Shown here piece after piece: positions 7,058-24,628 of a DNA stretch of 64,000 nucleotides. The stretch covers positions 62,001-126,000 of the forward strand of contig NZ_PDKN01000001.1 in assembly GCF_004116335.1 (NCBI RefSeq), written 5' to 3'. Below the pieces are notes generated by a model. The model saw only the letters and a program-made list of their open reading frames with translations. It was not told the origin of the DNA and ran no database searches. The DNA is from Candidatus Marinarcus aquaticus (GTDB lineage Bacteria; Campylobacterota; Campylobacteria; Campylobacterales; Arcobacteraceae). The position numbers were made by a program, and so were the translations under genes. Within the stretch, counting starts at the first letter, position 1. Each line of letters opens with the position of its first letter.

Positions 7058-7134
7058 TGGCGCGGCTGACGAGACTCGAACTCGCGACCTCCTGCGTGAC
7101 AGGCAGGCATTCTAACCAACTAAACTACAGCCGC
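7058..7134 (-). tRNA. tRNA-Asp (GTC), copy 1
   Basis: Minus-strand cloverleaf with acceptor GCGGCTG/CAGCCGC, anticodon loop CTGTCAC (anticodon GTC) and T-loop GTTCGAGTC. Discriminator G is followed by an encoded CCA. The sequence is identical to the second Asp copy at 7534-7610. It is the last gene of the array and lies 11 nt beyond the U tract of a terminator-like hairpin. Confidence 0.97.
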
Positions 7135-7145
7135 ACAAATTTTGC

Positions 7146-7169
7146 AAAAAAAAAGCGGGATCCCCGCTT
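7146..7169 (-). terminator. Terminator-like hairpin inside the tRNA array
   Basis: On the minus strand AAGCGGG-GAT-CCCGCTT is followed directly by further U, giving nine in a row (plus-strand A run 7146-7154). This is a textbook intrinsic terminator, 7 nt past tRNA-Val and 11 nt before tRNA-Asp copy 1. That gap is too short to hold a complete promoter for the Asp gene. Confidence 0.8.
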
Positions 7170-7176
7170 GCAATTA

Positions 7177-7252
7177 TGGTGGTCGATATAAGACTCGAAC
7201 TTATGACATCTACCTTGTAAGGGTAGCGCTCTACCAACTGAGCTAATCGACC
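7177..7252 (-). tRNA. tRNA-Val (TAC), copy 1
   Basis: Acceptor GGTCGAT/ATCGACC, anticodon loop CTTACAA (anticodon TAC), encoded CCA. It is identical to the copy at 7710-7785. It is the last tRNA before the internal terminator-like hairpin. Confidence 0.97.
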
Positions 7253-7337
7253 TGAAAATCGTAATTTTTCTAAACTGCTTTAGAAAAATAGATTTGAAAT
7301 CAAAGGCATTTGAAAGAACCTATACAGATTCAAAAAA

Positions 7338-7412
7338 TGGTGACCCCTAGGAGACTCGAACTCCTGTGGCATGGATGAAAACCATGAATCCTAACCGCTA
7401 GATGAAGGGGCC
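7338..7412 (-). tRNA. tRNA-Glu (TTC), copy 1
   Basis: Acceptor GGCCCCT/AGGGGTC, anticodon loop TTTTCAT (anticodon TTC), encoded CCA. It is identical to the copy at 7624-7698. An 85-nt spacer, the longest in the array, separates it from tRNA-Val copy 1. Confidence 0.97.
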
Positions 7413-7437
7413 ACGAATAAATAATGCTCAATATGAA

Positions 7438-7513
7438 TGGTGACCCGTGAAGGATTCGAACCTTCGGCCACCTCCTTAAAAGGGAGATGCTCTACCAGCT
7501 GAGCTAACGGGTC
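7438..7513 (-). tRNA. tRNA-Lys (TTT), copy 1
   Basis: Acceptor GACCCGT/ACGGGTC, anticodon loop CTTTTAA (anticodon TTT), encoded CCA. It is identical to the copy at 7845-7920. Confidence 0.97.
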
Positions 7514-7533
7514 AAATAAAAGAAAAAATTAAA

Positions 7534-7610
7534 TGGCGCGGCTGACGAGACTCGAACTCGCGACCTCCTGCGTGACAGGCAGGCATTCTAACCAACTAAA
7601 CTACAGCCGC
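7534..7610 (-). tRNA. tRNA-Asp (GTC), copy 2
   Basis: Same 77-nt sequence including CCA as 7058-7134. It lies between tRNA-Glu copy 2 (upstream in transcription) and tRNA-Lys copy 1. Confidence 0.97.
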
Positions 7611-7623
7611 ACAATTTAAAAAA

Positions 7624-7698
7624 TGGTGACCCCTAGGAGACTCGAACTCCTGTGGCATGGATGAAAACCATGAATCCTAACCGCTAGATGAAGGGGCC
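7624..7698 (-). tRNA. tRNA-Glu (TTC), copy 2
   Basis: Same 75-nt sequence as 7338-7412, anticodon TTC, encoded CCA. Only 13 nt separate it from tRNA-Asp copy 2. Confidence 0.97.
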
Positions 7699-7709
7699 AT
7701 TATTAATTA

Positions 7710-7785
7710 TGGTGGTCGATATAAGACTCGAACTTATGACATCTACCTTGTAAGGGTAGCGCTCTACCAACTGAGCTAATCGACC
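7710..7785 (-). tRNA. tRNA-Val (TAC), copy 2
   Basis: Same 76-nt sequence as 7177-7252, anticodon TAC, encoded CCA. It is the second tRNA of the transcript. Confidence 0.97.
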
Positions 7786-7844
7786 TTTTCTAAAGGGATG
7801 AAATAATAGCAAAGGTATTATTAAATCTTCTTTAAATTTTGATA

Positions 7845-7920
7845 TGGTGACCCGTGAAGGATTCGAACCTTCGGCCACCTCCTTAAAAGGGAGATGCTCT
7901 ACCAGCTGAGCTAACGGGTC
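7845..7920 (-). tRNA. tRNA-Lys (TTT), copy 2
   Basis: Same 76-nt sequence as 7438-7513, anticodon TTT, encoded CCA. It is the promoter-proximal gene of the array, 21 nt downstream of the -10 box. Confidence 0.97.
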
Positions 7921-22632: not shown

Positions 22633-22645
22633 TTAGATAAAATCA
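22633..22645 (+). promoter_or_regulatory. Probable rpsB -10 promoter element
   Basis: TTAGATAAAATCA is identical to the element before ileS. It would start transcription around 22650, just ahead of the structured leader and ~120 nt before the rpsB start codon. Confidence 0.45.
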
Positions 22646-22665
22646 CGGTTCTATTTTTATAGAAA

Positions 22666-22740
22666 CCTCACATGTGTCAATCCTGGTATGGGTTGTGACA
22701 AGCGTTCGCTTGGCATTAAGGGACACAGAGGCAAAACCCA
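22666..22740 (+). ncRNA. Structured rpsB leader, three-way junction (candidate S2 autoregulatory RNA)
   Basis: P1 pairs CCTC (22666-22669) with GAGG (22728-22731) and TGTGTC (22673-22678) with GACACA (22722-22727), leaving a 3-nt bulge on one side. P2 pairs AATCC (22679-22683) with GGGTT (22690-22694). P3 is CAAGC (22699-22703) / GCTTG (22708-22712) with a GTTC loop. TGGGTT (22689-22694) can instead pair with AACCCA (22735-22740), so P2 and a downstream helix are mutually exclusive. The element lies between the likely promoter and the rpsB ribosome site (AAGGAG, 22757-22762). Ribosomal-protein operons are commonly self-regulated through such leaders. Confidence 0.6.
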
Positions 22741-22769
22741 AAACACAATAAATTCAAGGAGAATTACTC

Positions 22770-23573
22770 ATGGTTACAATGAAAGACCTATTAGAGTGTG
22801 GTGTACACTTCGGACACCAAACAAGACGATGGAATCCAAAAATGAAAAAATTCATTTTCGGTGTAAGAAAGAATATTTATATTATTGACTTACAAAAAAC
22901 TTTAAGATACTTCAGATATACATATACTGTAGTTAGAGACAATGCTGCTCAAGGGCAAACAATGATGTTTGTTGGAACAAAAAAACAAGCAAGTCAAGCA
23001 GTTAAAGATGCAGCGATTTCTTGTGGTATGCCATACGTTAACCACAGATGGTTAGGTGGTATGTTAACTAACTATGGAACAATTAAAAAATCAATTAGAA
23101 AATTAGAAATTATTAAAAAAATGAGAGAAGAGGGGCAATTAGACCTTTTAACTAAAAAAGAAGCATTAATGCTTACAAGAAAAGAAGAGAAATTAGAGCT
23201 TTATCTTGGTGGTATTAAAGAGATGAACAAATTACCAGATATGATGTTCGTTCTTGACGCAGTTAAAGAGAAAATTGCTATTAATGAAGCAAGAAGATTA
23301 GGAATCAAAGTTATCGCACCATTAGATACAAACTGTGACCCTGATGTTGTTGATTACCCAATTCCAGGAAACGATGATGCTATTCGATCTATTCAACTGT
23401 TTTGTACTGAAATGGCTGAAGCTATGAACGAAGGTAAAGCAGCATACGCAGAAGAGAATGGTGAAGAAGTAGTTGAACCTGTAACTGAAGAAGAAACGGC
23501 AGAAGTTGTAGCTGAAGCAGTTGCTGAAGGTGAAGCAGAAGTAGCAACAGAAGAAACTACAGAGGAAGCGTAA
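22770..23573 (+). CDS. rpsB: 30S ribosomal protein S2
   Basis: 267 aa. The N-terminus [31 protein letters not shown] and the [12 protein letters not shown] segment are S2 signatures. The conserved core ends near residue 225. The last ~40 residues are a strongly acidic Glu/Ala/Val tail, longer than in E. coli. The start follows AAGGAG and a structured leader. It is cotranscribed with tsf, 2 bp away. Confidence 0.97.
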
Positions 23574-23575
23574 TT

Positions 23576-24628
23576 ATGGCAGGTGCAACTCCAAAACTGA
23601 TTAAAGAACTAAGAGAGAAAACGGGTGCAGGTATGCTTGATTGCAAAAATGCACTTAATGAGACTGAAGGTGATTTAGAAAAAGCGATTCAAGCCTTAAG
23701 AGAAGCGGGTTTAAGTAAAGCTGCTAAAAAAGCTGGAAACGTTGCTGCTGAAGGTCTTATTTCTATTTTAGTTAGTGATGACAACAAAACCGCAACGATG
23801 ACTGAGATTAACTCTCAAACGGACTTCGTTGCAAAAAATGACAACTTCATTAAATTAACTCAAGACATCACTGCACACGTTCAAGCAACAGGTGCAGCTG
23901 AGACTGAAGAGTTAAAGAAAACAACTATCAACGGTCAAAACTTTGAAGAGTTTTTAAATGAAAAAATTGCAACAATCGGTGAAAACATTGTTGCTAGAAA
24001 AATGGTTACTTTATCAACTGATACAGGTGTTATCAACGGTTACGTTCACGCAACTGGAAAAGTTGGAGTTTTATTAGCTGCAACTTGTGATGAAGCTGCT
24101 AAAGAGAAAGCAATTCCATTATTAAAAAACATTGCAATGCACGCATCTGCAATGAAACCAGTGGTTATTTCTTATGAAAACTTAGACCCAGAATTCGTTG
24201 AAGCTGAAAACAGAGCAATCGTTGCTGAGATTGAAGCTGAGAATGATGAGTTAGCAAGATTAGGAAAACCACTTAAAAAAATCCCTGCATTTGTTTCTAA
24301 ATCTCAATTAACAATGGAAGCTTTAGAGCAAGCAGAAGAAGAGTTTAAAAAAGAGTTACAAGCTTCAGGTAAACCAGAGAAAATCTGGGACAAAATCTTA
24401 CCAGGTCAAATGGAAAGATTTGTTCAAGACAACACTGAGTTAGACAGAAGATTGGCACTTCTTTCTCAAAGTTATGTAATGGATGACAAGTTAACTGTTG
24501 AGCAAGCAATTGCTGAAGTTGACAAATCAATTCAAATCGTTGAATATGTACGATTTGAACTTGGTGAAGGAATCGAGAAAAAAGAAGAAGATTTCGCAGC
24601 TGAAGTTGCTGCACAAATGGGTAAATAA
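23576..24628 (+). CDS. tsf: Elongation factor Ts
   Basis: 350 aa. The N-terminal UBA-like region LIKELREKTGAGMLDCKNALNETEGDLEKA and the core TDFVAKN motif identify EF-Ts, the nucleotide-exchange factor of EF-Tu. It is longer than the E. coli protein, mainly through a helical stretch around residues 215-285, which I recall as usual for this phylum. A terminator follows 27 bp after the stop. Confidence 0.97.
   Translation: MAGATPKLIKELREKTGAGMLDCKNALNETEGDLEKAIQALREAGLSKAAKKAGNVAAEGLISILVSDDNKTATMTEINSQTDFVAKNDNFIKLTQDITAHVQATGAAETEELKKTTINGQNFEEFLNEKIATIGENIVARKMVTLSTDTGVINGYVHATGKVGVLLAATCDEAAKEKAIPLLKNIAMHASAMKPVVISYENLDPEFVEAENRAIVAEIEAENDELARLGKPLKKIPAFVSKSQLTMEALEQAEEEFKKELQASGKPEKIWDKILPGQMERFVQDNTELDRRLALLSQSYVMDDKLTVEQAIAEVDKSIQIVEYVRFELGEGIEKKEEDFAAEVAAQMGK

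Follow-up and report, generated by a model that had tools for sequence, protein, structure and literature searches.

The rpsB motif is a structured RNA in which a helix (P1) is capped by a junction with variable helices P2 and P3, while the J2/3 segment forms a pseudoknot with a 3' extension of P1 (Meyer et al. 2009, BMC Genomics 10:268, PMC2704228). It has been described from most Alpha- and Gammaproteobacteria and 'a few Epsilon-', and P2 is absent from most of its versions in Gammaproteobacteria, Cyanobacteria and Firmicutes (PMC2704228). The name rpsB RNA is reused in PMC6429828. In Escherichia coli, excess uS2, aided by bS1, binds the rpsB leader and represses rpsB-tsf translation, with the rpsB ribosome-binding site lying outside of the S2 operator, as outlined in an excerpt of PMC10931766, citing Aseev et al. 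2008 for the repression. The Rfam E. coli model for this leader is t44 (RF00127). Among other ribosomal protein leaders, the excerpted text of Eckert and Weinberg (2020, PMC7247131) has a Bacteroidia L13-operon leader as its sole rpsB entry, and within that excerpt there is no mention of uS2, Campylobacter or Epsilonproteobacteria.

The window, which is the entire 64,000-nucleotide stretch of Candidatus Marinarcus DNA that was analysed, carries an rpsB leader at positions 22666-22740, and direct reading of these positions returned the letters given in an earlier, sequence-only reading of this DNA. The closing stem with a three-nucleotide bulge claimed there is present in the sequence (CCUC/GAGG, bulge ACA, UGUGUC/GACACA), as is the complementarity of TGGGTT to AACCCA (Table 1). 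Its placement of the element between a promoter and the ribosome site of rpsB is likewise plausible, with a -10 element recognised by eye on one side and a Shine-Dalgarno sequence, 15 nt from the end of the pseudoknot, on the other. From TAAAAT as the -10, we infer a transcription start near 22650; a sigma-70 consensus scan returned no plus-strand promoter. The order of rpsB and tsf is that of the E. coli rpsB-tsf operon. An upstream open reading frame (66 aa) starting from the ATG at 22688 was dismissed as a chance occurrence, its ATG not being kept in the alignment of relatives. The minimum free energy fold of the leader in the window shows P1, P2 and P3 as drawn in the sequence-only reading, with an energy that barely beats those of shuffled sequences (z -1.32; 16/200 shuffles equally good). 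As energy alone proves nothing here, the structure was tested by comparison.

Table 1. Coordinates of the rpsB leader elements and downstream genes in the analysed window of Candidatus Marinarcus
Feature	Position	Strand	Remarks
Probable -10 element TAAAAT	22638-22643	+	By eye; AGATAAAATCACG 26-29 nt upstream of the motif in several relatives
Outer P1, 5' strand CCUC	22666-22669	+	Partner 22728-22731; weakly conserved as a helix
Bulge ACA (3 nt), within the conserved CACA block	22670-22672	+	C5, C7 and A8 at least 90 % conserved (alignment)
P1, 5' strand UGUGUC	22673-22678	+	Partner GACACA 22722-22727; covariation
AAUCC block (P2 5' strand of the sequence-only reading)	22679-22683	+	Sequence conserved; pairing not conserved
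J2/3 segment UGGGUU (pseudoknot 5' strand)	22689-22694	+	Partner 22735-22740; covariation
P3 hairpin GUG A CAAGC GUUC GCUUG G CAU	22695-22716	+	Covariation
P1, 3' strand GACACA	22722-22727	+	Covariation
GAGG (conserved block and outer P1 3' strand)	22728-22731	+	Columns with 90 % conservation or more
AACCCA, 3' strand of the pseudoknot, located past P1 in its 3' extension	22735-22740	+	Covariation
rpsB Shine-Dalgarno AAGGAG	22756-22761	+	Sequence; outside the structure
rpsB, ribosomal protein S2 (267 aa)	22770-23573	+	Start codon 22770; relatives in 99/100 genomes
tsf, elongation factor Ts	23576-24628	+	2 nt past rpsB; identified from its sequence, without database search

The comparative set was drawn from the rpsB upstream regions of related genomes (rpsB found in 99/100), from which sixty-eight Campylobacterota leaders were aligned using MAFFT. 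Compensatory changes occur in all six pairs of the inner P1 helix (99.8 % of cells paired) and in all six tested pairs of P3 (91.3 % paired). The covariation score of the structure as a whole is 0.482, versus 0.205 when shuffled (0/500 as high), and slid registers reach 0.199 at most. The covariation of P1 and P3 and the fixed location ahead of rpsB bear out the proposal of a structured, cis-acting rpsB leader. In the outer CCUC/GAGG helix 86.3 % of cells are paired, with the outermost pair broken in 22/68 leaders; the CACA and GGAGG blocks are conserved in sequence across the leaders, while the outer helix is less consistent. A lengthened P1, in which AAUCC pairs with GAUGG (P1b), was paired in 50 %, barely above shuffles, and was not adopted.

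Where the spacer varies, MAFFT shifts the 3' strand of the pseudoknot and the alignment undercounts this helix, and a placement-free count was therefore used. The best 5-bp match was taken between J2/3 and the 14 nt past GAGG, and the left strands were redealt among genomes as the control. A perfect match is found in 48/59 distinct leaders, whereas redealt left strands give 19 on average and 30 at most (1000 shuffles). The two strands covary, with seven kinds of pairing distinguished (GGGTT/AACCC, AGGTT/AACCT, TGGTT/AACCA, GGGCT/AGCCC, GAGTT/AACTC, GGCTT/AAGCC and GGTTT/AAACC). Compensatory changes are present in the inner pairs, the outermost pair is loose (kept in 15/24 changed cases), and leaders with CGGTT fall short of five pairs. 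As judged from these sequences, the TGGGTT/AACCCA pairing, which had been described as a competing helix, is the pseudoknot of the published rpsB motif.

The hairpin P2 (22679-22683 with 22690-22694) fares differently, with one compensatory cell across its five pairs. Among the thirty leaders which depart from GGGTT, all five pseudoknot pairs are kept in twenty-one and all P2 pairs in one. AATCC thus fails to follow GGGTT while the pseudoknot partner does follow, which indicates that selection maintains the pseudoknot and that P2 is at most transient. The compensatory changes that were to support all three stems are found in P1 and P3 and, beyond that one cell, not in P2; of the two inner hairpins claimed, P3 stands, and the three-way junction drawn with P2 is a pairing not kept in evolution. 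The sequence-only reading had further proposed a switch, with P2 and UGGGUU/AACCCA being mutually exclusive and S2 or the order of folding selecting between them to control rpsB. Both pairings have GGGUU in common, P2 is part of the minimum free energy fold and, being upstream, could form first during transcription, and many leaders could form it when G-U pairs are allowed (90.6 % of cells). However, two mutually exclusive helices that are both conserved were not found, the supposed competitor being the conserved pseudoknot itself and the only one of the two helices to be maintained. Furthermore, the pseudoknot duplex is the stabler in 68/68 leaders (mean -6.2 vs -0.8 kcal/mol, loop costs left out), and the Shine-Dalgarno sequence is covered in neither state. 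Such a switch is considered improbable. The same low probability attaches to a kinetic version, in which a transient AAUCC/GGGUU hairpin would form first and be displaced by the pseudoknot, with S2 capturing the pseudoknotted form, a type of switch undescribed for an S2 leader. Located in the rpsB leader, with a covarying P1, the pseudoknot and P3, and with P2 short or absent, the element has the make-up of the rpsB motif (PMC2704228), and the suggestion that its shape is new for Campylobacterota does not hold.

A covariance model of P1 and P3 alone (R1), built from Campylobacterota leaders, matches 256/298 genomes of the phylum, nearly always once per genome (among the genomes listed, two matches occur only in G265). 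The match lies ahead of rpsB in 76/79 fetched rpsB loci, while the three loci lacking it comprise one in which just 74 bases precede the gene (L157) and two with a diverged version (L183 and L189). On the sequences compared, the S2 leader appears to be nearly universal in Campylobacterota. Loss of the leader in L002, L007 and L009 was considered and rejected, as the motif is present and has been moved upstream by an inserted element. In five Arcobacteraceae loci (L025, L045, L046, L051 and L066) an insert that is tens of bases long, and in many cases a hairpin, is found between the P1 and pseudoknot 3' strands.

The leaders of one family (f16) are mostly without an R1 match, and L183 and L189, which carry the same kind of leader, are titled Sulfurimonas. 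The leader sequence differs (CAAAAACCGGTGCAG ... AACCGG), with the plan of stem and pseudoknot unchanged (L192-L210, L183, L189). The pseudoknot strands match perfectly in 13/16 (0/2000 shuffles as high), and the P1 arms pair with their own partners at a mean of -11.4 kcal/mol versus -7.2 kcal/mol with exchanged partners (lowest shuffle -9.5). No Rfam match was obtained in these Sulfurimonas-type rpsB leaders. Two loci within the family (L211 and L193) retain the usual version, and the divergence thus looks like replacement or drift inside one family.

A separate 5'-leader element of ~137 nt forms a dispersed family in Arcobacteraceae, occurring in 29/80 genomes with up to 26 copies each. The Marinarcus genome (G000) has six, including copies outside the window at C5:117628-117763, C8:4364-4494, C4:206013-206143 and C12:38278-38406, and related loci are L007:2268-2401, L217-L236 and L237-L266. 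The element consists of a hairpin (GAACAACTCGTTGTTC), CUUUAGG, a second long hairpin and then GGUCCCUUU...AAAGGA; a third hairpin pairs with the Shine-Dalgarno sequence, and an alternative GGUCCC/GGGAC pairing overlaps this third hairpin. Compensatory changes were observed in 15/24 predicted pairs (13 copies). The start codons of many unrelated genes, named by eye as sufC, hypA, ispH, mnmA, aroQ, folA and others, follow at a near-constant distance. No Rfam match was found for the element, which may be a regulatory RNA not described before or else a mobile repeat of leaders. Unnamed motifs confined to Arcobacter are mentioned in PMC6429828. In L002, L007 and L009 (and, by spacing, L112 and L125) a copy separates the S2 leader motif from the rpsB start codon, and those leaders therefore carry two structured RNAs in tandem; the copy at L007, where read, is without the third hairpin. 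Elsewhere in the window, the Rfam scores of eight tRNA genes (7061-7920, minus strand) repeat in pairs, which suggests that a four-tRNA block was recently duplicated.

The only match of RF00127 in the Marinarcus genome is the rpsB leader, at 22 bits versus a gathering threshold of 44, and across the phylum 16/150 genomes have a match, with 0/150 above that threshold. Conversely, the best R1 match in a 1.2-kb E. coli rpsB region is the t44 leader, with a modest score (18.4 bits; E 8e-4). The alignment of R1 to E. coli lines up the CACA, P1, GGAGGC and AACCCC blocks, and the E. coli leader carries GUGGAGGC where that of Candidatus Marinarcus has GAGG. Given the sub-threshold scores, the connection with E. 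coli is based on common architecture and conserved blocks, and annotation misses the rpsB leader in Campylobacterota. From its sequence, the leader is filed as an S2 leader of the rpsB motif, and by Rfam's own rule not as a member of RF00127.

We consider it highly probable that the leader is the Campylobacterota version of the rpsB motif, the autoregulatory S2 leader best known from E. coli t44, and by analogy with t44 it is very likely to be read by S2. P1 with its CACA bulge, P3 and the UGGGUU/AACCCA pseudoknot would fold into a compact RNA upstream of the rpsB Shine-Dalgarno sequence. Once S2 production exceeds that of 30S subunits, the free protein, probably with the help of S1, would bind this RNA as in E. 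coli, and the bound protein would repress translation of rpsB and, by coupling, of tsf. The Marinarcus genome encodes an S1-domain protein (557 codons; at least five S1 repeats). No terminator-like site was found in the rpsB leader, which favours translational control, and transcription attenuation was rejected on this ground. The lack of such a site also speaks against a separate small RNA, as does the location of the element directly ahead of rpsB wherever checked. That reading derives from the old E. coli name t44/tff, with tff annotated as 'putative small RNA T44' over the rpsB leader and RF00127 typed as sRNA, and is barely conceivable here. Direct evidence for S2 binding or regulation was not found for any member of the Campylobacterota, and two Campylobacter transcriptome papers contained nothing on rpsB. 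This shortage of regulatory data would also accord with a structured but unregulated leader, serving only in mRNA protection or in setting a constant level of translation, and the conservation of P1 and P3 would suit a stability element. However, the conserved unpaired CACA, AAUCCU and GGAGG blocks and the pseudoknot resemble a protein site, and in E. coli the corresponding RNA serves as an S2 operator, leaving an unregulated leader with a very slight chance of being correct.

The leader read as an S2 regulatory element is thus real, conserved and functional-looking, and belongs to an already known kind. What is new is its near-universal spread in Campylobacterota, its corrected structure, in which a pseudoknot, and not the arm of a switch, accounts for the conserved long-range pairing, and the diverged version of family f16. 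At its curated threshold the Rfam model misses a leader that is near-universal in this phylum, and the covariance-supported leader alignment provides a basis for a better model. The Sulfurimonas-type family, in which the stem and pseudoknot are kept and the sequence has changed, is a natural system for testing which features S2 reads.

As an autoregulatory ribosomal protein leader class, the element is comparable to the leaders treated in the excerpted text of PMC7247131. With the E. coli S2 operator (t44, RF00127) it shares the gene and position, the CACA block, a P1 adjoining GGAGGC, a downstream AACCC and a Shine-Dalgarno sequence and ribosome-binding site outside of the structure, while the stretch enclosed by the P1 strands has another sequence and, in most Campylobacterota, a shorter length. 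The features in common with the rpsB motif (PMC2704228) are the location in the rpsB leader, the long P1 and a pseudoknot of ~5 pairs between J2/3 and the 3' extension. However, P2 as a conserved helix is effectively absent from the Campylobacterota leaders, and in place of 'a few Epsilon-' the motif is here near-universal in the phylum.
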